In this document: positions 3,578 to 32,740 of the stretch, in pieces
How positions within the stretch are numbered: position 1 is the first letter of the stretch
Layout of the letters: every line of letters begins with the position of its first letter
Virus record (IMG/VR): IMGVR_UViG_3300037202_000211
Location: 1-47,561 of that record
Reading direction: 5' to 3' (one strand)
Origin: a virus
Length of the DNA stretch: 47,561 nt
Notes under the pieces: model-generated
What the model saw: only the letters and a program-made list of their open reading frames with translations
Told to the model about the DNA's origin: nothing
Databases searched by the model: none
Program-made: the position numbers and the translations under genes

Positions 3578-3976
3578 ATGAGCGCTCACGAAGCAGTCCG
3601 CGCATTTGTTACTGACCCCGTGCTTCAGAAACGGCTCGCGAAGTACATGGTGTTGCAGTGCTTCCGCAATTCCCGGCTTGAGGATCTTCATGCGGGAATC
3701 TCGCCAGACTCCGCAGCCGGAGACTACTCCGACGTGCTGGTCACCAGCCCGTATGGCTCGATCTCCTGGCCCGAGGTGTCGCGCTTCAACGACGACGAAA
3801 TGAAGGACCTCATGATCGATGTCGTCAACCGGGCCTATCGCTTCATTCACACGCTCTTCGACGAGAACACTGGCGCTGGGCTCCTGCTCCAGCTTGCCGA
3901 ACGCGATCCTCTGCCACGATGGAACGAACCGGCGCTGACGGAAATCGAGGCGCCCACATCGCGCAAAAAGCCGTAG
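3578..3976 (+). CDS. Conserved hypothetical protein, 132 residues
   Basis: This is a soluble protein with a distinctive middle: 'LEDLHAGISPDSAAGDYSDV' followed by 'SPYGSISWPEVSRFNDDEMK'. I recall similar small proteins in integrative elements of other bacteria, with no assigned function. No membrane or signal segments are visible. It has a good ribosome site (GGAGG a few bases before ATG 3578). The last 15 residues are polar and probably disordered. Its place beside an excisionase-like gene fits an element-maintenance role, but that is inference. Confidence 0.75.
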   Translation: MSAHEAVRAFVTDPVLQKRLAKYMVLQCFRNSRLEDLHAGISPDSAAGDYSDVLVTSPYGSISWPEVSRFNDDEMKDLMIDVVNRAYRFIHTLFDENTGAGLLLQLAERDPLPRWNEPALTEIEAPTSRKKP

Positions 3977-4700: not shown

Positions 4701-5245
4701 CTAGCCCGAGCCTGGATCTCCACCTTCCCGCCACGCGCACCTTGGCTCGTTTCAAAGCGAAGGCTGTCATCGGCCAAGCCGGGCTGACTGCGGATGACCG
4801 GGAAGACGTCGAAGCCCAGCTTCTGGTGGCCCTCTGCTCTCGGGTCCGGGCCTTCGACGGTGATCGCTCCTCTCTCCGCACGTTCGCCTGCCGGGTGATG
4901 GATAAAGAGGTTGCCTCCATGCTGCGGTACCGCCTGGCGCAGCGCCGGCTGCAACTCGGCCGGCCCGAGCTTGTTGACGGCGGCGCGCCCGATCATGTCT
5001 ACGGTGCCTCGCCCTCCACGGCCCAACAGCAGGAGTTCTGGCTGGACGTGGGCAGGGTGGTGGAAACCCTCCCGGCGCCTTTACGGGAAACAGTGCTGGC
5101 CCTGCGCTGCGGTTCGCCCACCGAGGCCAGCGAAGCTCTCGGCACGGCGAGGTCGGTGGTGTACGAACGGATCGCTCAGATCCGCCATGCGTTCCTGGCG
5201 GCAGGCATCGGGCCGACCTATTTCACGGTGGGAGGCGGCCGATGA
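4697..5245 (+). CDS. Sigma-70-like RNA polymerase sigma factor or related HTH protein
   Basis: The 182-residue protein has the layout of a small sigma factor. A region-2-like block (about 20-85, 'DREDVEAQLLVALCSRVRAF' then 'RTFACRVMDKEVASMLRYRL') is followed by a linker and a region-4-like HTH (about 125-175, 'LPAPLRETVLALRCGSPTEA' then 'LGTARSVVYERIAQIRHAF'). It may direct transcription of phage genes, or be a sigma-fold regulator that does not act as a true sigma factor. GTG 4697 overlaps the preceding TGA and has GGGGAGGG upstream. Its stop overlaps the next ATG. Region 2 is short and divergent, which is the main doubt. Confidence 0.65.
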   Translation: MTSPSLDLHLPATRTLARFKAKAVIGQAGLTADDREDVEAQLLVALCSRVRAFDGDRSSLRTFACRVMDKEVASMLRYRLAQRRLQLGRPELVDGGAPDHVYGASPSTAQQQEFWLDVGRVVETLPAPLRETVLALRCGSPTEASEALGTARSVVYERIAQIRHAFLAAGIGPTYFTVGGGR

Positions 5246-6057
5246 AGCACGGCGAGATTATCGCGATCAAAGACCTCCGGCTGGATGGCGGCACTCAGCC
5301 GCGCGCCACCATCGATTTTGAAGCTGTTTTCGATTACATGGATGCGATGGCCGACGGGGCGAAATTCCCACCCGTGGTCGTCTTCTACGACGGAGCGAGT
5401 TATTGGCTGGCCGACGGCTTCCATCGGGTCAAAGCGGCGGAACAGGCCGGTGGCGACGAAATCGAGTGCGATCTGCACCAGGGGACCCAGCAGGACGCGC
5501 AGTGGTACAGCTTCAGCGCCAACAAGACCAACGGGCTCCGGCGAACCAACGACGACAAACACCGGGCCGTGATCGCGGCACTCGGACATCCCAACGGCGC
5601 GCCATTGAGCAATCGCCAAATCGCTACCCATGTCGGCGTCGATGAGGGTACGGTGCGAAACTGGCGGGAGAAATTGACTGCGGAAATTCCGCAGTCGCCG
5701 AAGCGCAAGGGCCGCGACGGCCGCACCATCAAAGTCACCAACATCGGCAAAACCGCCAGCCAGCCTTTTCCCGCGACTGCGCCGGAGGCTGTGCAGCCCG
5801 CGGAGCCAACAGACGCCACCTGCGCAACCGACCCATCGCCATCAACCGATGACGGCGGCGCGAACGCTGCCGAAGGCATGGCCAATTACTGGTGTCAGCG
5901 TGTGTGGAGCGCCGCCTCGGAAATTGCGGAATGCCCGGTGTCCGCGAAGGATCTTGCGGCGGCCATGCGCCGCAGCAACAGCAATCAACTTAGAAAACAA
6001 CTGGAGAAAACACGTGACGTCATTGCAGCAGTTCTCGCCGACGCAGGCCTCGATTGA
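5242..6057 (+). CDS. ParB/Spo0J-like DNA-binding protein
   Basis: The N-terminal ParB domain (about 1-95) has 'DGGTQPRATIDFEAVFDYMD', 'FPPVVVFYDG' and the GxHR-type motif 'LADGFHRVKAAEQAGG'. An HTH follows ('LSNRQIATHVGVDEGTVRNW') and then 'AEIPQSPKRKGRDGRTIK', matching the 'GEIPQ..KR.G.DGK' motif seen in many phage and plasmid ParB-like proteins. The C-terminal third is Pro/Ala-rich and then helical. Such proteins may bind DNA and hydrolyse CTP, or act as regulators; no ParA is nearby, so partition is not implied. ATGA overlap with the sigma-like gene. A 21-bp palindrome lies inside this gene at 5676-5696. Confidence 0.85.
   Translation: MKHGEIIAIKDLRLDGGTQPRATIDFEAVFDYMDAMADGAKFPPVVVFYDGASYWLADGFHRVKAAEQAGGDEIECDLHQGTQQDAQWYSFSANKTNGLRRTNDDKHRAVIAALGHPNGAPLSNRQIATHVGVDEGTVRNWREKLTAEIPQSPKRKGRDGRTIKVTNIGKTASQPFPATAPEAVQPAEPTDATCATDPSPSTDDGGANAAEGMANYWCQRVWSAASEIAECPVSAKDLAAAMRRSNSNQLRKQLEKTRDVIAAVLADAGLD
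5676..5696. repeat. 21-bp perfect palindrome, copy 1 (inside the ParB-like gene)
   Basis: Two 10-bp arms (GACTGCGGAA and its reverse complement) flank a central A. It lies in coding sequence, reading as TAEIPQS just after the HTH. The identical palindrome occurs at 16555-16575 with unrelated flanks. It is a candidate protein-binding site. Confidence 0.8.
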
Positions 6058-6928
6058 CCTGCAGACGCCCGCCGCGTTCGGCGGAGCCGCCATCGACAAT
6101 TTCGCTTCGCTTTTGAGGGCAACCAAACCGACCCGGCTCAGGATGCAGGTAACTCCGGCAATGGCGAAGCATTGGCTCGAAACCACCAACGTCAAGAACC
6201 GCCCGCTTTCGGAAACGCACTGGATGAAGATCTGGATCGATATTGTCGAGGGCCGGTGGAAGTACAACGGCGAGCCGATCAGCTTCGGAACCAACGGCGC
6301 CCTCCTGAATGGGCAGCATCGGTTGCAGGCATGCACAGAGAGCGAAATCCCGATCGATACCGACGTGATCTTCGGCCTGGACCCCGAGGCCATGAGCACG
6401 ATCGACATTGGCAAGGTCCGGACCGCCGCGAACATTGCCTACCTGGAGGGCGTGGAGAACGCCACTGCCGCATGCGCGGCCGCCCACCTCATCCTCCTGC
6501 ATGAAAACGGCGGCATCCACCAGCTCGGCAACAAAGACGTGGAGCCAAGCAAAACGAAGGTCAACGAGCGGGTTCGGACCGACCGCAGGATCTCGACGGT
6601 CGCCGGCCATGCCTCGGGAATGGGCCGCGGCCTGGCCTCTCCGCGCGTGATGACCTTCTGCTATTACCTCTTCAGCGCGCAGAAACCCGACTTGGCCGAA
6701 ACCTTCTTTAACCAACTGGAGAGCGGCGCCGGTCTTACTGAACGCAATCCCGTCTACCTCTTGCGGGAGCGGCTGCGCACCAACAGCGCAGGTAAGGCAA
6801 AACTGCCGCTGCTCGAAATCGTTGCGCTGTTCTTCAAGGCGTGGATTGCTTACCGGAGCTACAAGCCAGTGAAGTGTCTCCGCTGGAACAACAGCGGCGC
6901 CAATCCCGAGAGGTTTCCGGAGATCTAA
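6014..6928 (+). CDS. ParB-like phage protein (NGQHRL family)
   Basis: A 304-residue protein with the layout of a common phage family: 'VTPAMAKHWLETTNVKNRPL', then 'IVEGRWKYNGEPISF', then 'TNGALLNGQHRLQACTESEI' and 'STIDIGKVRTAANIAYLEG'. NGQHRL corresponds to the GxHR nucleotide-binding motif of ParB domains. The C-terminal half is helical. The frame is open from 5849, but GTG 6014, with CTGGAG 7-10 bases upstream and a short overlap with the previous gene, is the likely start. Its role is unknown; binding or modifying DNA is the usual guess. The next gene starts two bases after its stop. Confidence 0.75.
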   Translation: MTSLQQFSPTQASIDLQTPAAFGGAAIDNFASLLRATKPTRLRMQVTPAMAKHWLETTNVKNRPLSETHWMKIWIDIVEGRWKYNGEPISFGTNGALLNGQHRLQACTESEIPIDTDVIFGLDPEAMSTIDIGKVRTAANIAYLEGVENATAACAAAHLILLHENGGIHQLGNKDVEPSKTKVNERVRTDRRISTVAGHASGMGRGLASPRVMTFCYYLFSAQKPDLAETFFNQLESGAGLTERNPVYLLRERLRTNSAGKAKLPLLEIVALFFKAWIAYRSYKPVKCLRWNNSGANPERFPEI

Positions 6929-17340: not shown

Positions 17341-18597
17341 TTGACTTACGGCAGCGTGTGTTCGGGCATTGAGGCTGTGACCGTGGCATGGGAGCCGCTG
17401 GGCTTCCGGCCGGCATGGTTTGCCGAGATCGATCCGTTTTGCTCCGCGCTCCTGGCGCACCGGCACCCGGGTGTTCCCAACCTTGGCGATTTCACGACCA
17501 TCGAAGAAAGCCGCCGTCCAATCGACATTCTGGCCGGAGGAACTCCGTGCCAGTCCTTCTCCCTCGCCGGAAGACGTGGCGGCCTGGAGGATGCGCGTGG
17601 CAACCTGGCCATCGAGTTTTGCCGGCTTGCTGGCCGACTGCGGCCTCGCTGGATCGTCTGGGAAAACGTCCCCGGTGTTCTGTCCTCGAACGGCGGGCGG
17701 GACTTCGGCTCCATCGTCGGGGCGCTGGCGGAACTCGGGTTTGGTTGCGCCTGGCGAGTGCTGGACGCTCAGTTTTTTGGAGTGCCCCAGCGGCGCCGTC
17801 GCGTCTTCGTTGTCGGACATCTTGGAGACTGGCGGCGTGCCGCAGCGGTACTTCTTGAGCGCGAAGGCCTGTGCAGGCATACTCCGGCGCGCCGCCAGAC
17901 GGGGGAAGGAATTACCCGCGATCTTGCGCCAAGCCTTACAGGAAGTGGCCGGGGAGTCGAACGAAACGGCGATTCGCGAGGGCAGGATCCGGTAGTCGCG
18001 GTGCACCACACCACAGGCAATGGCTACTGGCACGAAGGAGCGGGCACGCTCCGGGCACGCAAGCAGGAATCGCACGAGCATCTGGTCGCTTCGACGGGCA
18101 ATGTCTCGCGCTGTCTGAATGGGGGCGGCATGCACCGGATCGATTATGAGACGGAGACACTGGTGACGGCGTTCTCCGCGAAAGACCACGGAGCCGACGC
18201 GGGACCACTCGCGCCAACACTCCGCGCGATGCCGCACGACCGCAGCCATGCGAACGCGGGCGGCCAAGTCGCGGTGTGTTTCGAGAGTCGAGTTGCGCGA
18301 AACGGCAGGGGCGGTCCATCGGAAGTTGTGCCACCGCTCAAGGCTCAGTCCGGGGCGACTGGCCGGGGCGACGCCGCTCCGTTGCTTGCGGTTGGTGGGC
18401 CCCTGGCGGTCAGGCGATTGACCCCGCGCGAGTGCGAACGGTTACAGGGGATGCCGGACGATTACACGTTGATCCCATATCGCGGGAAGCCGGCAGCCGA
18501 CGGTCCCCGGTACCGGGCGATTGGAAACTCGATGGCGGTGCCAGTGATGCGGTGGATTGGCAGCCGAATTCAGATGGTGGACAGCATTGGCGGCTGA
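17341..18597 (+). CDS. DNA (cytosine-5) methyltransferase
   Basis: C5 methylase motifs appear in order: motif I 'YGSVCSGIEAVTVAWEPLG', motif IV 'GGTPCQSFS' with catalytic Cys70, motif VI 'WENVPG' (Glu108), motif VIII 'QRRRRVFVVG' (151-159), a long variable target-recognition region (about 170-365), and the motif X region 'RAIGNSMAVPV'. It would methylate cytosines in phage and host DNA, probably to evade restriction; no restriction enzyme gene is nearby. The 418 residues are usual for phage Dcm-like enzymes. The start is TTG 17341, which gives the family's usual beginning; no ATG or GTG could encode motif I intact. A ParB-methylase gene follows. Confidence 0.92.
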   Translation: MTYGSVCSGIEAVTVAWEPLGFRPAWFAEIDPFCSALLAHRHPGVPNLGDFTTIEESRRPIDILAGGTPCQSFSLAGRRGGLEDARGNLAIEFCRLAGRLRPRWIVWENVPGVLSSNGGRDFGSIVGALAELGFGCAWRVLDAQFFGVPQRRRRVFVVGHLGDWRRAAAVLLEREGLCRHTPARRQTGEGITRDLAPSLTGSGRGVERNGDSRGQDPVVAVHHTTGNGYWHEGAGTLRARKQESHEHLVASTGNVSRCLNGGGMHRIDYETETLVTAFSAKDHGADAGPLAPTLRAMPHDRSHANAGGQVAVCFESRVARNGRGGPSEVVPPLKAQSGATGRGDAAPLLAVGGPLAVRRLTPRECERLQGMPDDYTLIPYRGKPAADGPRYRAIGNSMAVPVMRWIGSRIQMVDSIGG

Positions 18598-20988: not shown

Positions 20989-22320
20989 ATGAAGACCGCG
21001 CACGATTCAACCACGAGTCAGGACAGTTCCGTGACACCTGAGCGTGTCTTGCGCGATCTTCTCGTGGAGCGCTGGCAGGTCGACCGCCTGATTCCCTACA
21101 TCCGCAATGCGAGGACGCATTCGGAGGAGCAGGTCGCGCAGGTCGCCGCCAGCATCGTCGAGTTCGGGTGGACGAATCCAATCCTGGTCGGTGCGGACGG
21201 AGTGATCATCGCCGGTCACGCGCGCCTGCTTGCCGCCCGGAAACTCGGGATGACCGAAGTCCCAGTCATCGTTCTGGATCATCTCACCGAAACACAGCGC
21301 CGCGCGCTGGTCATCGCAGACAATCGTCTGGCGATGAATGCCGGTTGGGACGAGGAGATGCTGCGGGTTGAACTGGAGTCGCTCCAGGTGGACGGCTTCA
21401 ATCTGGACATCGTCGGCTTCAGCGACGAGGAAATTGAAGCACTGCTCCAGGAGCCGGAAGAGGAGCGCGCCGGGAACACCGACGACGATGCAGTCCCGGA
21501 GACGCCGGAGACTGCAGTCACGGTCCCCGGCGATGTCTGGATTCTGGGTGAGCACCGTCTGCTTTGCGGCGACAGCACGCAGATGGAATCCGTGGAGAAG
21601 GTGCTTGCCGGCGGTCTTGCCGACATGGTCTTCACCGATCCGCCGTACAACGTGAACTACGGCGCGACGATGAAGGACAAGCTCCGCAAAAAGAACCGCA
21701 AGATCGCCAACGATAATCTGGGCGATGGCTTCGAGCAGTTCCTGCGGGACTCCTGCACGAACCTGTTGGCGGTGACCAAGGGCGCTATCTACATCTGCAT
21801 GTCGTCGTCGGAGATCCACACGCTGCAGCGGGTGTTCCGCGAGGCGGGTGGGCACTGGTCGACTTTCATCGTGTGGGCGAAGAACACTTTCACGATGGGG
21901 CGTTCCGATTACCAGCGCCAGTATGAACCGATCCTCTATGGATGGAAGGAAGGCACGGATCATTTCTGGTGCGGCGCCCGCGATCAGGGCGACGTGTGGT
22001 TCATCAAGAAGCCTTCGGTGAACGATCTGCACCCGACGATGAAGCCTGTGGAACTGGTGGAGCGCGCCATCAGGAACAGCAGCAAGGGCCGCGATACCGT
22101 GCTCGATCCGTTCGGCGGCTCTGGCACGACGTTGATCGCTTGCGAGAAGTCCGGCCGCCAGGCGCGCGTCATTGAGTTGGACCCGAAGTACTGCGATGTG
22201 ATTATCACCAGGTGGCAGGAGTTCACCGGTAAGCAGGCGCAGCACGCAGCGAACGGTCGCGCATTCGCGGACACGCACGAGTCAAACGAGGAGGATCGAT
22301 GCCAACCCCAGGAATCATAG
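20989..22320 (+). CDS. ParB-domain/DNA methyltransferase fusion 2 (probable N6-adenine)
   Basis: A 443-residue fusion with a ParB-like N-terminus ('QVDRLIPYIRNARTHSEEQ', 'DGVIIAGHARLLAARKLGM') that closely matches the gene at 18617. An N4/N6 methylase follows, with 'VFTDPPYNVNY' near 216 and 'VLDPFGGSGTTLIACEKSGR' near 372. DPPY points to N6-adenine rather than the SPPY of its paralogue, so the two may mark different bases. The N-terminal halves are much more alike than the C-terminal halves, suggesting duplication or shuffling with a swapped catalytic domain. ATG 20989 is the only clear start. Confidence 0.9.
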   Translation: MKTAHDSTTSQDSSVTPERVLRDLLVERWQVDRLIPYIRNARTHSEEQVAQVAASIVEFGWTNPILVGADGVIIAGHARLLAARKLGMTEVPVIVLDHLTETQRRALVIADNRLAMNAGWDEEMLRVELESLQVDGFNLDIVGFSDEEIEALLQEPEEERAGNTDDDAVPETPETAVTVPGDVWILGEHRLLCGDSTQMESVEKVLAGGLADMVFTDPPYNVNYGATMKDKLRKKNRKIANDNLGDGFEQFLRDSCTNLLAVTKGAIYICMSSSEIHTLQRVFREAGGHWSTFIVWAKNTFTMGRSDYQRQYEPILYGWKEGTDHFWCGARDQGDVWFIKKPSVNDLHPTMKPVELVERAIRNSSKGRDTVLDPFGGSGTTLIACEKSGRQARVIELDPKYCDVIITRWQEFTGKQAQHAANGRAFADTHESNEEDRCQPQES

Positions 22321-24852: not shown

Positions 24853-26748
24853 ATGCATCCGTTCTCCATCCATGAGGTTGGCGCCGCGGCCATGCTGCCG
24901 CCGCGCGACATTACCGTTTCCCAGTGGGCGGATGAGAACCGCGTGCTGACCGGCGGCGCGGCGGCCGAACGGGGCCAGTGGCGCACGCGGCCTTACCAGC
25001 GCGAGCCGATGGACGTACTCAGTCCCAGTCATCCCTGCCGCCAGGTCGTGGTGCTATCGGGAGCGCAGATCCTCAAGACGGAAGTGCTCCTCAACTTCAT
25101 CGGCTTCATCGCCGATGTGGATCCGGGACCGGTGCTGGTGGTGGAGCCGCGCACGGAGGATGCCAAGGCCCTCTCGAAAGACCGCGTGGCGCCCATGTTC
25201 CGCGCGACGCCGGCACTCCGTGGGAAGATCGCGCCCGTCAAGTCGCGCGATTCGAGCAACACCACACTGCACAAGGTTCTCGCCAATGGCGCAGGGCAGA
25301 TCACGCTGACCGGGGCGATCTCGCCGTCGGGGCTGGCCATGCGGCCGATCCGCTATGCGCTGCTGGATGAGGTGGACCGTTACCCGGCCAGCGCGGGCAC
25401 GGAGGGCGACCCGGTGTCGCTGGCGATCCAGCGCACCGCGGAATTCGCCCACAACAAAAAGATCGTCATGGCGTCTACGCCGACGATCAAGGGCGTCAGC
25501 CGCATCGAGCTGGCGTGGCGTGAGAGCGACCAGCGCGATTACTTCGTGCCCTGCCCGCAGTGCGGGTGCTTCCAGGTGCTCGCGTTCGGCGATGGCACGG
25601 GGCCGGGCGTGGTGTGGCCAGAGGGGAAACCCGAAGACGCTGCGTATCGTTGCGCCGGGTGCCACGAGCTAATTCCTCACCGCCTCAAAGCTGAGATGGT
25701 GGAGCGCGGCGAGTACCGCGCGGCGAATCCGTCCTCGCCGATTCCCGGCTTCCGCGTGTCGCAACTGATCTCGCCCAAGAAGTCCTGGGGAGAAATCGCC
25801 GTGGAATTTCTGGCGGCGAAGAAGTCGCCGGAGACGCTTAAGGCATTTCTGAACACGGTGCTCGCTGAGTTGTGGGAGGAGATCCACGAAGTAGCGACGG
25901 ACGCCCATGGGTTGTGGAACCGTTGCGAGCCTTTCGAAGCCGAGGCACCGGACGGGGTGGCGCTGATCACGGCAGGCGTCGATGTGCAGGCTGATCGCCT
26001 GGAGATGGAAATCGCCGGGTGGGGGCGCGATGAAGAATCCTGGTCGATCGCCTATCACGTGATCCCTGGCGACGTGACCCGCAACGAAGTGTGGGAACAC
26101 TTGGAAGGCCTGCTGCTCTCCGAGTACCTGCATGCGTCGGGGCTGCCGATGCGGATCGTCGCGACGTGCATCGACTGCGGGTTCAAGGATGCCACCGTGC
26201 TGCATTTCACACGCGACCGTTACAACCGGCGTGTCTATGCCACCAAGGGGCGCGCGGGCGAATCGCCGATCTGGCCGCGCAAGCCGAGCCGTAAGAACCA
26301 GACGCCGTTCTTCATGATCGGTGTGGATGCGGCGAAGACGGCGATCTATGACCGGCTGAAGCTCCGGGATATTGGGCCGGGCTATTGCCACTTCCCGATC
26401 GGGCGGGACCTCGAGTACTTCGAGCAGTTGACCGCCGAGAGGAAGTTCACGCGCTACCACAACGGGTTTCCGAAGCAGGAATGGCGGAAGCCGGCTAACG
26501 CCCGCAACGAAGGCTTGGATGCGCGGGTGCTCGCGTACGCGGCGCTGCACGCGCTGTACGCCAGCGGCTTGAAACTGCCGGTGCATTGTGACCGCTTCGC
26601 ACGGATGGTGCAGACGCGGCGGGGGGAGACGCCACAGGCAACTCCTGCGGTGACAAAGCCGTCCAACACCGACCGCCCGGCTCCGCCTTCCACAGAGCGC
26701 GGCGAAGACCCATGGATACCGCGCCGCAACTGGTTCGGGCGAAATTGA
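24853..26748 (+). CDS. Terminase large subunit, GpA family
   Basis: A lambda GpA-type packaging motor and nuclease, 631 residues. The ATPase domain has the deviant Walker A 'LSGAQILKTEVL' and a Walker B region 'YALLDEVDRYP'. A zinc-ribbon insertion has 'PCPQCGCFQ' and 'RCAGCHELIP'. The C-terminal nuclease has 'TAGVDVQADRLEMEIAGWG' and 'NEGLDARVLAYAALHAL' with the expected Asp residues. The last 50 residues are a Pro/Arg-rich tail. It cuts concatemeric DNA and drives it into proheads through the portal encoded just downstream. Confidence 0.95.
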   Translation: MHPFSIHEVGAAAMLPPRDITVSQWADENRVLTGGAAAERGQWRTRPYQREPMDVLSPSHPCRQVVVLSGAQILKTEVLLNFIGFIADVDPGPVLVVEPRTEDAKALSKDRVAPMFRATPALRGKIAPVKSRDSSNTTLHKVLANGAGQITLTGAISPSGLAMRPIRYALLDEVDRYPASAGTEGDPVSLAIQRTAEFAHNKKIVMASTPTIKGVSRIELAWRESDQRDYFVPCPQCGCFQVLAFGDGTGPGVVWPEGKPEDAAYRCAGCHELIPHRLKAEMVERGEYRAANPSSPIPGFRVSQLISPKKSWGEIAVEFLAAKKSPETLKAFLNTVLAELWEEIHEVATDAHGLWNRCEPFEAEAPDGVALITAGVDVQADRLEMEIAGWGRDEESWSIAYHVIPGDVTRNEVWEHLEGLLLSEYLHASGLPMRIVATCIDCGFKDATVLHFTRDRYNRRVYATKGRAGESPIWPRKPSRKNQTPFFMIGVDAAKTAIYDRLKLRDIGPGYCHFPIGRDLEYFEQLTAERKFTRYHNGFPKQEWRKPANARNEGLDARVLAYAALHALYASGLKLPVHCDRFARMVQTRRGETPQATPAVTKPSNTDRPAPPSTERGEDPWIPRRNWFGRN

Positions 26749-26749
26749 T

Positions 26750-27004
26750 ATGGCTCTGACGATTCAGCAGTTGCAAGCGAACCTGGACACGATCAACCAA
26801 GCGATCGGCAGTCCCACGCTGAAAGTGCGTTTCCCGGACGGGCGGGAGGTGACGTACCGATCTATGGACGAACTGCGCAAGGCGAAGGCCGAGATTGAAG
26901 AGGACATCCGGCAGGCCAGCGGGCAGACCGGGAGCCGAGTCCGGTTCGCGCAGCACCAGCGCGGGGACGGTCCCACAGGCCCAACGCTGGATGACCGCTG
27001 GTAA
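26750..27004 (+). CDS. gpW-like head-tail joining protein
   Basis: An 84-residue protein beginning 'LTIQQLQANLDTINQAIG', with 'VRFPDGREVTYRSMDELRKA' and a helical end, the usual look of gpW-type proteins placed between the terminase and portal genes. They stabilise filled heads and form part of the connector. The C-terminal 25 residues are polar. ATG 26750 is one base after the terminase stop, and the portal starts 4 bases after its own stop. Confidence 0.8.
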   Translation: MALTIQQLQANLDTINQAIGSPTLKVRFPDGREVTYRSMDELRKAKAEIEEDIRQASGQTGSRVRFAQHQRGDGPTGPTLDDRW

Positions 27005-27008
27005 CGAA

Positions 27009-28553
27009 ATGAATCTCCTCGATAAGGCCATCAGCATCGCGGCGCCGCGCGTTGCGTTGCAGCGTGTGCGTAGTCGCGTGGCACTCGAATTGACCACGGG
27101 CTACCTGGAGCGGCACGCGCAGCGGTTCCGCTACGAAGGCGCCACCGCAGGACGCCGCGCACACGGCTGGTACGCCGCCTCGACGGACGCCAACGTCGAG
27201 TTGATGGGGTCGCTCATCTGGCTCCGCAACCGCAGCCGCGATCTCATTCGCAACAATCCGTATGCGGCGCGCGCGGTGGAGGAACTGGCCGGGAATGTGG
27301 TTGGGACTGGAATCGTACCGAAAGCAAAAACCGGCAACACGGCCATCGACAAGATCATTGACGCCGAGTGGCCATTCTTCGCCGACGGCTGCGACACGCC
27401 GCAGCGCCTCGATTTCTATGGCATGCAGACGCTGACCGTCCGCACCATGGCGGAATCGGGAGAAGCGATTGTCCGTTTCCGGCCGCGACCCGCGGACGCC
27501 GGCCTGCGTATTCCGCTTCAGCTTCAGATGCTCGAAGCCGATTTCCTCGATCAGGCCCGCACGATGGGCCTGGTCAACGGCCATGTGATGGAGGGCGTCC
27601 AGTTCGATGAGATGGGACGCCGCGTCGCGTACTGGCTGTTCAGCTACCACCCGGGCGGCGTGCTGATCCTCAACCCGCGCGGCGGCATTGTGAGCCAGCC
27701 GGTTCCGGCCGACCAGATCATGCACGTTTACCGCGTGCTCCGGCCTGGCCAGGTGCGCGGCGTGCCGTGGCTAGCGCCGGTGATGATGGCGCTTCGCGAT
27801 CTTGACGACTACTGCGACGCGGAGCGGGTCCGCAAGAAGGTGGAAGCCTGTGTTACGGCGTTCGTGCAGCAACCGGAAGGCGTCGATGGCGATCCACTCG
27901 GCATCGCGGGAACCGATCCGTCCAGCGGGCTTCCGGTCGAGAGCTTCCAGCCCGGCATGGTTGAGTATCTGAAGCCCGGCCAGGACATCAAGTTCAACAA
28001 TCCGCCGCCGGCGGGCGGGTACCGAGAATACAAGATGACCGAGTTGCAGGGGATCATGGCTGGCATCGGGCTGCCTTACGAACTCGGCACCGGCGACATG
28101 TCGCAGGTAAACTACCCCCAACTGGCGCGGCGGGATGCTCGGCTTCCGCAACACGGTGGAGGCCTTCCGCTGGCTCACCCTGATCCCGTTGTTTGCGATG
28201 CCTGTGTGGCGGCGGTTCATCGACACGCTAGTTATGCAGGGCAAGATTCCGAAATCCGCGGCCAACGACCCGAAGATCGGACTGCGCAGTGTGCAGTGGA
28301 CCGCGCCACGGTTCGAATCGGTGGATCCGGTGAAAGACGCAGAGGGTGTATTGAAAGATGTCCGCATGGGCCGCAAGACCTGGTTCGAGGCCGTGCTGGA
28401 GAACGGTTACGACCCTCCCACCCAGCTTGCGCAGATTGCACTGTTCAACAAGCTGGTGGACAAATTCGAAATCATCCTGGACTCGGACCCGCGCAACACG
28501 ACGCTCCGCGGCCAGGAGCAGCCGGCCGCAACGGAGGAGCGGACCCCGAGTAG
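27009..28553 (+). CDS. Portal protein, lambda family, N-terminal part (frameshifted)
   Basis: The lambda gpB-type portal forms the ring through which DNA enters. Recognisable parts are 'DLIRNNPYAARAVEELAGNV', 'ESGEAIVRFRPRP', 'PADQIMHVYRVLRPGQVRGV' and 'GIGLPYELGTGDMSQVNY'. After about residue 369 the frame yields Pro/Arg/Ala-rich nonsense to 28553, while the true C-terminal half continues in the next frame (ORF at 28135). The break lies at or just after a run of five C at 28115-28119. Removing one C gives one 562-residue portal. ATG 27009 is used; the frame is open upstream to 26895 within the joining gene. Confidence 0.9.
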   Translation: MNLLDKAISIAAPRVALQRVRSRVALELTTGYLERHAQRFRYEGATAGRRAHGWYAASTDANVELMGSLIWLRNRSRDLIRNNPYAARAVEELAGNVVGTGIVPKAKTGNTAIDKIIDAEWPFFADGCDTPQRLDFYGMQTLTVRTMAESGEAIVRFRPRPADAGLRIPLQLQMLEADFLDQARTMGLVNGHVMEGVQFDEMGRRVAYWLFSYHPGGVLILNPRGGIVSQPVPADQIMHVYRVLRPGQVRGVPWLAPVMMALRDLDDYCDAERVRKKVEACVTAFVQQPEGVDGDPLGIAGTDPSSGLPVESFQPGMVEYLKPGQDIKFNNPPPAGGYREYKMTELQGIMAGIGLPYELGTGDMSQVNYPQLARRDARLPQHGGGLPLAHPDPVVCDACVAAVHRHASYAGQDSEIRGQRPEDRTAQCAVDRATVRIGGSGERRRGCIERCPHGPQDLVRGRAGERLRPSHPACADCTVQQAGGQIRNHPGLGPAQHDAPRPGAAGRNGGADPE

Positions 28554-28698
28554 CAAAGTGGCTCCCACCAAGTCCAAGGGTCAGGGTTTCACGGGGCTTT
28601 CGGAAGAGGACCTGGGCATGGTGAAAGATCTGCTCGTCGCCGGCATGTCGCGCGCGGGCAGCGGTTTCGAATCGGCCCCACGGCTGTATCGCGGCTGA
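28135..28698 (+). CDS. Portal protein, C-terminal part (out of frame with the N-terminal part)
   Basis: These 188 residues are the end of the lambda-type portal: 'GFRNTVEAFRWLTLIPLFAM', 'PKIGLRSVQWTAPRFESVDP' and 'AEGVLKDVRMGRKTWFEAVL'. In this frame the TAA at 28108-28110 closes the upstream side, and reading from 28111 gives PNWRGG before the Met. The frame change must therefore lie between 28111 and 28135. ATG 28135 is probably not a true start; the part is best read as the continuation of the gene at 27009. Confidence 0.85.
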   Translation: MLGFRNTVEAFRWLTLIPLFAMPVWRRFIDTLVMQGKIPKSAANDPKIGLRSVQWTAPRFESVDPVKDAEGVLKDVRMGRKTWFEAVLENGYDPPTQLAQIALFNKLVDKFEIILDSDPRNTTLRGQEQPAATEERTPSSKVAPTKSKGQGFTGLSEEDLGMVKDLLVAGMSRAGSGFESAPRLYRG

Positions 28699-28724
28699 AG
28701 ACTCAACCACAAGGAAGGACACCA

Positions 28725-29213
28725 ATGAAAGGGAACCCACAGGTAATCGCTGGGCTTCAGGAGGCCGCCAACGTTGAAGGCTCCATGATGCTTCAGTATC
28801 TTCTCGACCAGCGCGACGTGAAGCGCCTGGGCCTGGATCTGGCCGACGGCCTCAAGCAACTCAAGGAGCAGTGCGAGGACCATATGAAGTGCCTGGTGAG
28901 CCGCGTCCTGTTCCTCGAGGGCGCGCCCACGATTGAGCTGAAGCCCGCGGCGACCCACGATAGCGTCACCGAGATTCTGAATGATGCGTTTGCCGCCGAG
29001 CAGGCTGCCATCGCGCGGTTCACCGACCTCTGCAAACAGTGCTACGACGCCGGCGACATGTCGAATTTCCACTTCTATCAGCACCTGGTGAAGTGGCATC
29101 GCGAGGGCGACGACAAGTTCAAAGGCCATGTCGCGTGGCTGCAGAAGCAACTCTACCAGTTGAAGAAGCTGGGAGAAAACGACTACATCGCCGTCAGCGC
29201 GGTGAAGGACTAA
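28725..29213 (+). CDS. Bacterioferritin-like protein in the phage head operon
   Basis: A 162-residue four-helix ferritin-like protein. The start 'MKGNPQVIAGLQEAANVE', the middle 'LVSRVLFLEGAPTIEL' and the end 'GHVAWLQKQLYQLKKLGEND' match bacterioferritin over its whole length. Aligned by eye with E. coli Bfr, ligands Glu18, His54, Glu94 and His130 are kept (here Glu18, His53, Glu92, His135). The positions of Glu51 and Glu127 hold Cys50 and Phe132, and the haem-ligand Met52 is Glu51. It may therefore bind iron weakly or serve structurally. It lies between the portal and protease/capsid genes with an AAGGA ribosome site, so it should be expressed with virion genes. Confidence 0.88.
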   Translation: MKGNPQVIAGLQEAANVEGSMMLQYLLDQRDVKRLGLDLADGLKQLKEQCEDHMKCLVSRVLFLEGAPTIELKPAATHDSVTEILNDAFAAEQAAIARFTDLCKQCYDAGDMSNFHFYQHLVKWHREGDDKFKGHVAWLQKQLYQLKKLGENDYIAVSAVKD

Positions 29214-29222
29214 GGAGGCACC

Positions 29223-31466
29223 ATGCCGCTTCTACGAACTGAAGTATCCGCTGCGGGTACCGGCGCGCCGCCGCCCGCGCAGGCTGACGCTGAAATCTTC
29301 TCAGCCGACGCACAGGTGCTGCCGAGCACTGCCAACGCCAAGGACGGCACCATCGATGTGGTCTGGTACAGCGGCACCGCCGTTCCGAGGGTTGACCGCT
29401 CGACCGGGGAACCCTACATGCTCCAGCTCGACATGCAGGGCTGCCGTTTCGACCGGCTGAACAACGGAGCTCCGGTGTTCGACACCCATTTCACCGGAGA
29501 CGATTTCAAGTCCCTCATGGCGGGCAAGGTCGGCACGCGAGCCCAGTTGGGCGTGGTGCGCCGCGCCTGGCCCAATGGCGAGAAGGGCATGGCGACCCTG
29601 CAATTCGATCTGGGCGATCCGGATGGCGCCGAGATATTCCGCAAAGCCAGCACCGGCATCCTGCAAAACCTCAGCTTCGGAACCTTTGTGTACAAACGCG
29701 AAAAGGTGGATGCGCAGACTGAAGGAATGCCGGAGGGCAAGCCGCCCTACCTGAACGACAAGGAAATCGGCATGTTCAAGGCTACCGACTGGGAGCCTTT
29801 CGAGATTTCGCCTTGCACGGTGCCGGCCGATTTCAACACGTGCTTTCTGAGCGCACAACCCAACGATTCAGTACGGGCAATCAGCCCACAAAAGGAGAAA
29901 CCTGCAATGGAACAGACGACCACGCAGGACACGGGCGCGGATGCCCGTACTGTGAACGATCAGGCCCTGGCCGCCGCGCGTGAAGAGGCGGTCCAGGCCG
30001 AACGGGAGCGCGTCAGCGAAATCCAAACGCTGGGCGCGACCGCAATCAAATACGGGATCGACGAGACCGTCATCAGCGACTTCATCGCCAAGGGCGTGCC
30101 CGTCGATCAGGCGCGGAAGGAACTGTTCGCCCATCTCGCGACCAAGGGCCAGCAGGGAGTCCCGCCGCGCCCAGGCGCAGAGGGCCCGTCAATCCCGATT
30201 CGCGCCGAACGCGGTGGATCGGTGACCCGCGACGGCATGGAGCAGCGCCTTGCCTGCATGCAGATGGCTCTGTTGCTGCGCGCGGACGGGCGGTTCTTCC
30301 TGGCTCGACGCAGGGATCACAACGGAAACGAAACCGGGGAATACCTCGATGGCTACGGTCCCGAGCAGCAGCGGCAAGCCGTCGAGATGGCCCGCGAGTA
30401 CCGCAATTTCAAGCTCATCGACATGGCCAAGGAGGCGCTGACGTTCCGCGGCATCAACCCGCGCGGAATGGACGTGACGCGGGTCGCGGAACTGGCGCTG
30501 AAGGGCCCGTCGCGTGGGCCGGAATTCTTTATGGGCGGCGCCGAATCGACTTCGGACTTCCCGGCGATCCTGGCCAATGTCGCCAATAAGACTCTGCGGC
30601 AAGGCTACGAAGCCTATCCGCGCACCTTCCAGCCCTTCTGCCGGCAGGTCACGGCGCAGGACTTCAAGCCCATCAACCGCGTGATGCTTGCCGATGCGCC
30701 CGTCTTGCAGGCGCTGAACGAGAAAGGCGAGTACCACCGCGCCAATCTGACCGACAACAACATCAACTACGCGCTCGGCACCTATGGCGAGATCGTCGCG
30801 CTGACCCGTAAGGTGATCATCAACGACGACCTTCAGGCGTTTACGCGCGTCCCGGCTCTTCTCGGCGTGGCTGCGGCGCAGCTCGAATCGAACACCGTTT
30901 GGGCAATCATCACGTCGAATCCGGCGGCGGTGTACGCGGGCGACAAGAACTCCACGGCGCTGTTCCACGCCAATCACGGCAACCTGCTGACCGGCGTGGC
31001 CAGCGCCATCGATTCCACCGTTGCCAATTCCGCTCCGTTGACTGCCTTGGGTAAGGGGCGCGGCGCCATGCGCTTGCAGAAGGGACCGCAGGGCACTCCT
31101 CTGAACCTCATTCCGCGGTTCATCGCCGTGCCGACGGCGCTCGAGACTTACATGCTCCAGCTCGTATACCCGATCAACATCGCGTCGGCCGATGCCACGA
31201 AGGTGGTTCCGGAATGGGTGCGCAGCCTGGTTCCGGTGGTCGAGCCGCGTCTCGACGCCGCGGCGAACGGGACCACGGGCTGGTATCTGATCGCGGACCC
31301 GGCGCAGATCGACACCGTGGAGTACTGCTACCTGGAAGGGCAGCAGGGCGTGTACATCGAAACCAAGCAGGGATTCGAGGTGGACGGCGTCGAAATCAAA
31401 GCGCGCATGGACTTCGGCGCGGCGGCCCTCGACTATCGCGGCCTCCAGAAGAACGCCGGCCAGTAG
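29223..31466 (+). CDS. Prohead protease / major capsid protein fusion
   Basis: A 747-residue fusion. The N-terminal protease domain (about 30-210) has 'PVFDTHFTGDDFKSLM' (His) and 'STGILQNLSFGTFV' (probable Ser), as in HK97/U35-like prohead proteases. A scaffold-like helical linker follows (230-320, 'EEAVQAERERVSEIQTLG'), then an HK97-fold capsid domain (about 330-747; 'YGEIVALTRKVIINDDLQAF', 'PRFIAVPTALETYMLQLVY', 'GVEIKARMDFGAAALDYRGL'). The protease would release mature capsid subunits. AAGGAGG before ATG 29223 is a strong ribosome site. Fusions of this kind are known in phages. Confidence 0.92.
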   Translation: MPLLRTEVSAAGTGAPPPAQADAEIFSADAQVLPSTANAKDGTIDVVWYSGTAVPRVDRSTGEPYMLQLDMQGCRFDRLNNGAPVFDTHFTGDDFKSLMAGKVGTRAQLGVVRRAWPNGEKGMATLQFDLGDPDGAEIFRKASTGILQNLSFGTFVYKREKVDAQTEGMPEGKPPYLNDKEIGMFKATDWEPFEISPCTVPADFNTCFLSAQPNDSVRAISPQKEKPAMEQTTTQDTGADARTVNDQALAAAREEAVQAERERVSEIQTLGATAIKYGIDETVISDFIAKGVPVDQARKELFAHLATKGQQGVPPRPGAEGPSIPIRAERGGSVTRDGMEQRLACMQMALLLRADGRFFLARRRDHNGNETGEYLDGYGPEQQRQAVEMAREYRNFKLIDMAKEALTFRGINPRGMDVTRVAELALKGPSRGPEFFMGGAESTSDFPAILANVANKTLRQGYEAYPRTFQPFCRQVTAQDFKPINRVMLADAPVLQALNEKGEYHRANLTDNNINYALGTYGEIVALTRKVIINDDLQAFTRVPALLGVAAAQLESNTVWAIITSNPAAVYAGDKNSTALFHANHGNLLTGVASAIDSTVANSAPLTALGKGRGAMRLQKGPQGTPLNLIPRFIAVPTALETYMLQLVYPINIASADATKVVPEWVRSLVPVVEPRLDAAANGTTGWYLIADPAQIDTVEYCYLEGQQGVYIETKQGFEVDGVEIKARMDFGAAALDYRGLQKNAGQ

Positions 31467-31544: not shown

Positions 31545-32339
31545 ATGCAGAATTACGTTCAAAAAGGTCAAACCCTCACGGTGACTGCGCCCTATGCACT
31601 CCTCAGTGGCGGCGGTTGCCAGGTGGGTAACATTTTCGGGGTGTCGGTCAACACCCAGAACATCGGCGACTCCAGCGAGATCGTGGTGGAGGGCGTGTTC
31701 GATCTGGCCAAGGACGCGAGCACGTTCAACTCGGGCGACAAAGTCTTCTGGAACAACACGACCCAGCAGGCCACGTCGAGCACGTTGACGGCGGCCGGAG
31801 CGTCGAATAAGGAAATCGGCTTCGCGGTCCTGAACCAGGCCAGCGGGGTGAACGCGCCAGGCGGCCAGACCACGGATGCCACGGTTCGCGTGCGGCTCAA
31901 TCCGCTCGGCTTTGGCCCGGTGCAGGCTGCCGATACCGATCCGTCGCTGATCCAGAAAGCCGTCGTCACGCTCACGGCGGCGCAGATCATGGCGATGTAC
32001 GGGGCGGCGGTCAGCATTCTGCCGGCCCCTGCGGCCGGCCAGGTGCTCGTGATCGACCAGCTCATCGCGCAGATGAAGCCCGGCGCCACGCAGTTCACAG
32101 GCGGCGGCGCGGTCACTTTCCAGTATCACGGGACTGGCGTGGTGCCGCACTCCGGAAACATTCCCGCCGCGACCATCACCAGCGCGGCTGGCAGCGAGAA
32201 CGTGGTGCCGCCGCCTACCGGAACGATCCAGCCCCCGGCTGCCACGGGCCTGGACATCACTAACGGCACCGCCGCCTTCGCGACCGGCAACGGCACCATG
32301 GTCGTAACCGTGTTTTACTCCATCATCACGCTCAACTAG
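31545..32339 (+). CDS. DUF2190 domain protein, probable capsid decoration protein
   Basis: The N-terminal 100 residues show the DUF2190 pattern: 'MQNYVQKGQTLTVTAPYALL', 'GCQVGNIFGVSVNT', 'VEGVFDLAKDAS' and 'GDKVFWNNTTQQAT'. This is usual for small proteins placed right after major capsid genes, thought to decorate or cement the head. The C-terminal 130 residues are an extra, strand-rich Pro/Thr/Gly region ('ATITSAAGSENVVPPPTGTI') perhaps forming a surface domain. CAGGAG before ATG 31545. The 78-base gap before it holds nothing I recognise. Confidence 0.75.
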   Translation: MQNYVQKGQTLTVTAPYALLSGGGCQVGNIFGVSVNTQNIGDSSEIVVEGVFDLAKDASTFNSGDKVFWNNTTQQATSSTLTAAGASNKEIGFAVLNQASGVNAPGGQTTDATVRVRLNPLGFGPVQAADTDPSLIQKAVVTLTAAQIMAMYGAAVSILPAPAAGQVLVIDQLIAQMKPGATQFTGGGAVTFQYHGTGVVPHSGNIPAATITSAAGSENVVPPPTGTIQPPAATGLDITNGTAAFATGNGTMVVTVFYSIITLN

Positions 32340-32398: not shown

Positions 32399-32740
32399 AT
32401 GTCCGACTGGCCCACCATCGACGCGGCAGTAAACGCCATCATGCAGGAGACGTTTGGCGAGCCGGTGGTGTACCAATCCGTGCAGGCTGGTTTCGCGGCT
32501 GGCGATCCCGCGACGGTCACTGCTATTCGCCATGCTCGCGTCCGCGAAGAATTCGGCGCATTGGCGAACGTCGAGGAGATCTCGGTCAATCCCACGGACC
32601 TTCCTAACTTTCCTCAGCGCGGGGATTGGGTGACCGCTTGGGGATCGCAATTTGTGGTGGCCACCGTGCGCCAGCCCGATCCATACGGACTGGTCGAACT
32701 TTCGCTGATGGCGCGAGCCGGGCAGGTTCCCAATGATTAA
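32399..32740 (+). CDS. Head-tail joining protein (gpFII-like)
   Basis: A 113-residue protein with a small beta-rich fold ('QRGDWVTAWGSQFVVATVRQ') and a helical N-terminus ('WPTIDAAVNAIMQETFGEPV'). Its place between the DUF2190 protein and tail genes fits a gpFII-like connector at the tail end of the neck. The similarity is short, so the assignment rests partly on gene order. The 3' end overlaps the next gene by 8 bases. Confidence 0.6.
   Translation: MSDWPTIDAAVNAIMQETFGEPVVYQSVQAGFAAGDPATVTAIRHARVREEFGALANVEEISVNPTDLPNFPQRGDWVTAWGSQFVVATVRQPDPYGLVELSLMARAGQVPND

Follow-up and report, generated by a model that had tools for sequence, protein, structure and literature searches.

A bacterioferritin-like protein with an apparently rebuilt metal site is encoded between the portal and capsid genes of uncultivated phages

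Phage head operons can carry a conserved, selected ferritin-fold protein whose metal chemistry appears to have been rebuilt. We found its gene in a 47,561-nucleotide virus sequence from IMG/VR (record IMGVR_UViG_3300037202_000211, positions 1 to 47,561; here, the window), where it occupies positions 28725 to 29213 of the plus strand and encodes 162 aa from an ATG start. As judged from family models and a predicted structure, the protein is ferritin-fold and closest to bacterioferritin (Bfr).

The gene order in the window, all on the plus strand, is terminase large subunit (24853 to 26748), head-tail adaptor Ad1 (26750 to 27004), portal (26895 to 28698), the ferritin-fold gene, a protease-major capsid fusion (phrog_4523; 29223 to 31466), and a head decoration protein (31545 to 32339); a weak match to head closure protein Hc1 follows at 32399 to 32740. 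An earlier note on this DNA had placed the ferritin gene between portal and protease/capsid genes. The position was right, but protease and capsid proved to be a single fused gene of 747 aa. The same note's description of virion-type spacing and a ribosome site was accurate. The ATG lies 26 nt after the portal stop, direct reading of the sequence puts the ribosome-binding site AAGGAAGGA at 28711 to 28719 (plus strand), 5 nt before the ATG, and the ferritin-gene stop is followed after 9 nt by the ATG of the protease-capsid gene, whose own ribosome site (AAGGAGG) overlaps that stop. Neither promoter-like nor terminator-like sites flanking the gene were found in a simple consensus scan, outside which other promoter types lie, and an Rfam search of the whole window gave no match. 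The portal frame is broken by one extra base beside a C run at 28115 to 28121, the C-terminal part occupying 28135 to 28698; the frame is intact in locus L007 and other relatives, and the break is probably a sequencing or assembly error and possibly a real mutation. Elsewhere, the window carries a C5-cytosine DNA methylase (17341 to 18597) and an N6/N4 DNA methylase (20989 to 22320), which suggests that the phage DNA is modified, as well as a serine recombinase, so that the phage may be temperate.

The claim that the gene is a full-length bacterioferritin homologue was borne out by Pfam, PDB, and Foldseek. The product scored 44.1 bits against Pfam PF00210 (Ferritin; cut-off, 24.5; E = 2.5e-11) and matched the NCBIfam bacterioferritin model TIGR00754 over its full length, with 41.9 bits, far under the equivalog cut-off of 125.55. 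Its top PDB sequence matches were bacterioferritins (E = 4e-9). An AlphaFold2 model built from 21 relatives had a mean pLDDT of 88.9 and a pTM of 0.85 (two of the five models were above 84 pLDDT and three were at 53 to 61). Helices were predicted at residues 5 to 34, 40 to 65, 81 to 108, 112 to 127, and 135 to 159, the last two of which indicate a helix D interrupted by a loop. The structural check against Bfr that the earlier note had proposed returned the expected fold, with Foldseek matching the model to bacterioferritins at E = 4e-7 and TM scores of 0.83 to 0.90. A PF00210 score over the curated cut-off together with a predicted four-helix bundle places the protein in the ferritin-like superfamily. 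Other phage alleles scored 17 to 42 bits against TIGR00754 or did not match it, and the most diverged one (L119 type) was not recognised as a ferritin by any family model; its predicted structure still had this fold, with helix D broken in the same way. PHROGs contained no family for the protein.

A search of IMG/VR retrieved 75 loci and later searches added further ones, giving, after removal of duplicates, 79 distinct loci (window included) that encode 73 distinct proteins. This number rules out an assembly error as the origin of the gene. Portal was recognised at 75 of the 79 loci and the capsid gene at 76, and in nearly all those on long enough contigs, the two flank the ferritin gene. Where seen, the portal stop is mostly 9 to 37 nt upstream, and the capsid gene usually starts 5 to 13 nt downstream. 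Two loci have extra DNA between portal and ferritin gene: in L042 (4740 to 6000), it contains a reverse-strand ORF of 239 aa with a signal-like start, and in L084 (5228 to 6000), two short ORFs only, of 81 and 93 aa, again on the reverse strand. A single-sequence query with the L074 protein matched nothing except L074 itself. In the INPHARED isolate collection, neither the window protein nor the diverged allele had a match, and E. coli Bfr as the query retrieved host-like contigs (Salmonella and Acinetobacter records included) and a few unannotated faecal records. Two loci fall in acidobacterial metagenome bins. In one of them, L077, truncated pieces of head genes, among them a part of the ferritin gene (5148 to 6643), are flanked by bacterial genes for an aldehyde dehydrogenase, an aldolase, MacB, and a CoA-transferase. 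This locus is likely a prophage remnant and supports an acidobacterial host. The carriers, uncultivated phages from soil and peat, probably infect Acidobacteriota, abundant bacteria of these habitats with few cultured phages.

The earlier note had called the di-iron site eroded. Its by-eye alignment with E. coli Bfr was correct, in that E18, H54, E94, and H130 are kept in the window protein and E51, M52, and E127 are replaced, the first two by Cys and Glu. To place this in context, we set 72 distinct full-length phage proteins against 29 cellular bacterioferritins of Acidobacteriota, all of which keep E18, Y25, E51, M52, H54, E94, E127, and H130. Among the phage proteins, E18 (Glu18 in the window, codon 28776 to 28778) is kept in 68 of 72, H54 in 59, and Y25 (Tyr25, 28797 to 28799), E94 (Glu92, 28998 to 29000), and H130 (His135, 29127 to 29129) in every one; E51, M52, and E127 are present in none, and the D50 position is always Gln. 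The stretch equivalent to E51-M52-x-H54 reads Cys50-Glu51-Asp52-His53 in the window (28872 to 28883). In E. coli Bfr, E51 and E127 bridge the two irons, and D50 is part of an inner-surface iron site. The loss of both bridging residues makes a normal di-iron centre unlikely, and the loss of M52 from all 72 proteins rules out haem binding. Thus, neither the complete set of ferroxidase ligands (E18/E51/H54/E94/E127/H130) nor the haem ligand that characterise a bacterioferritin is present.

Helix D, on the other hand, has gained histidines. His116, His120, and His125 (29070 to 29099, plus strand, like all codons given here) occur in 71, 72, and 72 of the 72 phage proteins, respectively. H116 and H120 correspond to Bfr positions D118 and E122, and H125 would take the position of E127 when helix D is aligned ungapped (MAFFT placed the gap elsewhere). 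The inserted loop between H125 and H135 (29103 to 29123) differs in length among alleles, with 7 residues in the window and 12 to 13 in two other allele types. H120, H125, H135, and E92 are invariant even among phage proteins down to 39% identity, and the stretch of lowest entropy is GHxxWLQKQ, in the second part of helix D. Given that the altered site is common to all 72 proteins, is under purifying selection, and includes new, fixed histidines, it is better read as rebuilt than as decayed. The note was therefore right about the lost canonical ligands and wrong about erosion; the site appears to have been rebuilt once, long ago, and preserved thereafter.

The dN/dS of the ferritin gene between relatives was about 0.03 to 0.14, similar to the portal and capsid genes. 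The gene is under purifying selection, and these values and the residue invariance rule out recent decay. In a tree in which the cellular Bfr were acidobacterial and, from other phyla, of E. coli only, the phage proteins formed one clade (support 100/99) far from the sampled cellular Bfr. We propose a single capture of a bacterioferritin gene by tailed phages that probably infect Acidobacteriota, in whose head operon it became an accessory gene. The distance of the phage clade from the sampled cellular proteins rules out a recent acidobacterial host as the donor.

The ferritin gene is accessory and has been lost several times. Among the cultured capsid-gene relatives, RcDormio, LPPA33, MinM1, and S1 have portal joined directly to capsid, and Shewanella phage 1/44 has other genes between them. 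Many IMG/VR relatives found via their portal lack the ferritin gene at the slot, and the portal tree requires 5 to 6 state changes. In L132 (about position 3700), L136, and L146, the capsid precursor has a new N-terminus: the ferritin gene is deleted except for its first 11 codons, MKGNPDVI(T/N)GL, which run on in frame into the protease-capsid gene; L138 and L140 have a slightly altered version of this fusion. Such a deletion scar implies that the gene was ancestral in those phages. L131 and L144 show apparent clean losses. A second copy of the gene was found in none of the records of L140, L098, L118, and L112, which may be incomplete. Since the gene is missing from close relatives, it is dispensable for head assembly there, and absence from otherwise similar phages is what is expected of a moron. 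Alleles also appear to move. The DNA of L190 and L200 is 98 to 100% identical in the portal region and mostly 85 to 100% in the capsid region, and drops to 45 to 63% inside the ferritin gene (L190, 5543 to 6129), the divergence being sharp and confined to the gene; at the protein level, the portals are 99.6% identical and the ferritins 54%. Divergence limited to this gene in near-identical phages indicates that alleles are swapped as cassettes.

The same slot is used in a second head module. L192 and L193, two nearly identical contigs that count as one independent case, have a terminase (TerL, PF03354), a portal (PF04860), a separate ClpP-like protease (PF00574), and an HK97 capsid protein (PF05065), and their portal and capsid had no detectable similarity to those of the window. 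They carry a member of the same ferritin clade between portal and protease (L193, 4331 to 9264), its ATG overlapping the portal stop and its end lying 30 nt before the protease. In L242, the nearest relative of this module (portal 65% and capsid 75% identical), portal is joined directly to protease, with no ferritin gene. The use of one slot in unrelated head modules points to a head-linked function rather than random insertion.

Taking the conservation and gene-order patterns together, we give roughly an even chance to the reading that the gene encodes an accessory, late-expressed, ferroxidase-dead, putatively metal-binding protein that acts with or inside the head. The gene would be expressed late, on a single transcript with portal and capsid. 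Its product would still form a ferritin-like oligomer and bind metal at the rebuilt, non-ferroxidase site, with E92, H125, H135, and often E18 as candidate ligands. It would work together with the assembling head or within it, and might, for instance, be packaged as a cargo that retains metal or protects DNA from metal-driven oxidation. That the protein may be a virion component, one of the roles suggested in the earlier note, is indirectly supported by the slot shared between two unrelated head modules and by the lack of a promoter or terminator of its own in the simple scan. Membership in a late operon does not require presence in the virion, and the more specific idea that the protein is a ferritin-fold, metal-binding cargo loaded into an HK97-type phage head is one that we hold only tentatively.

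A rather improbable but real alternative is that the protein acts in the host cell, as a ferroxidase-dead, haem-less subunit that joins host bacterioferritin cages and shifts iron storage or release to the advantage of the phage. Bacterioferritin cages are known to mix subunits with distinct functions (PMC6529640, PMC12120770), which is what makes this alternative real. Intact Bfr is common in acidobacterial genomes (54 of 199 above the curated cut-off), the full site is present in all 29 aligned cellular proteins, and allele swapping would suit a changing partner. However, the phage protein is only about 31% identical to the nearest acidobacterial Bfr seen and is separated from the cellular group by a very long branch, so the subunit interfaces may not match those of host Bfr. 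Moreover, many Acidobacteriota have no clear Bfr, and the shared portal-to-protease slot in two unrelated head modules would be left unexplained. That slot and the strongest conservation, which lies beyond the metal ligands, in GHxxWLQKQ, would also suit a protein of the capsid interior, or a decoration protein, for which the four-helix bundle is only a reused scaffold, the histidines and WLQKQ serving protein contact with no metal involved. We consider this unlikely, because four metal-capable histidines, E92, and Y25 are near-invariant at the old metal site, which would be unexpected without metal.

Slighter still is the chance that this is simply an auxiliary metabolic gene whose product, with a variant centre, oxidises iron and stores it as Bfr does. 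Two studies report viral bfr genes of this category (PMC10904782, PMC11780533), the gene is under purifying selection, E94 and H130 are kept, and E18 and H54 usually are. Against it, the bridging glutamates, the haem methionine, and D50 are each lost in 72 of 72 proteins, E18 and H54 are missing in some lineages, and the bfr model gives 41.9 bits against an equivalog cut-off of 125.6. Storage of iron for infection, one of the roles suggested in the earlier note, is accordingly unlikely by the normal Bfr mechanism. Finally, a stray host gene now degenerating in the capsid operon would account for the missing canonical site and for the relatives that lack the gene, but 79 distinct loci with intact frames, dN/dS of 0.03 to 0.14, and residues invariant down to 39% identity leave this with next to no probability.

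Presence of the protein in the virion would mean that these phages carry a protein dedicated to metal handling, which would bear on whether virions contain metal and on the origin of encapsulin cargo systems. If it is cargo, a real virus would independently show the encapsulin design, with a ferritin-like cargo gene just upstream of an HK97 shell gene, and it could be tested whether the pairing of ferritin cargo with HK97 shells predates or postdates capsid domestication. Action on host cages would make it a means by which the phage counters iron storage in the host. The natural deletions and allele swaps are ready-made comparisons for both the virion and the host-cage readings.

Among known systems, Bfr (TIGR00754; E. 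coli 1BCF/1BFR) shares with the phage protein the ferritin-fold bundle, alignment over the whole length, Y25, E94, and H130, and usually E18 and H54. The phage proteins differ in having no E51, E127, or M52 in any of the 72, Gln at D50, a helix D split by an inserted loop, and the new H116, H120, and H125, and they form a separate clade far under the equivalog cut-off. As with the bfr auxiliary metabolic genes of a Thermoproteota virus (PMC10904782) and of Flandersviridae (PMC11780533), a bacterioferritin homologue is present in a viral genome, and the former gene is likewise described as under purifying selection. In the available text of these reports, however, those genes are treated as bacterioferritins of iron metabolism, unlike the head-operon proteins, and there is no mention of a head-operon slot or a rebuilt site. 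Ferritin-superfamily proteins are also found in other phage records, as Dps-like or ferritin-like proteins (in Streptomyces phages, or named "Prohead protease" or Dps in BFVD), but the viral-structure search of BFVD gave only weak matches to ours (best E, 1.4e-3; identity, about 12 to 19%). Weak ferritin-fold matches included A0A6J7XDU5, A0A6J7WIS1, and A0A6J7WPK9, named prohead protease in uncultured Caudovirales, and a ferritin-like domain may be fused to the head protease elsewhere in phages. Purified AXL1 virions were reported to contain a single host protein, a bacterioferritin (PMC9206674), which is suggestive, yet also a warning of contamination.

Family 1 encapsulins, thought to derive from phage capsids, share this layout, the gene of a ferritin-like cargo lying immediately before that of an HK97-type capsid protein (PMC8346489). 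Here, in contrast, the shell is a phage protease-capsid fusion beside terminase, portal, adaptor, and decoration genes, the ferroxidase site of the would-be cargo is dismantled, and a simple pattern search of the 72 phage proteins found no encapsulin-type C-terminal targeting peptide. Since the layout is present and the targeting peptide and encapsulin shell are absent, we do not class the locus as an encapsulin system. Viral bacterioferritin genes were thus already known; in the open-access literature, we found no description of one in a phage head operon and, as the earlier note had supposed, no established role for a gene at this position, and the head-operon subfamily appears to be undescribed there. 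Within the bacterioferritin family, it is best regarded as a ferroxidase-less, head-operon branch.
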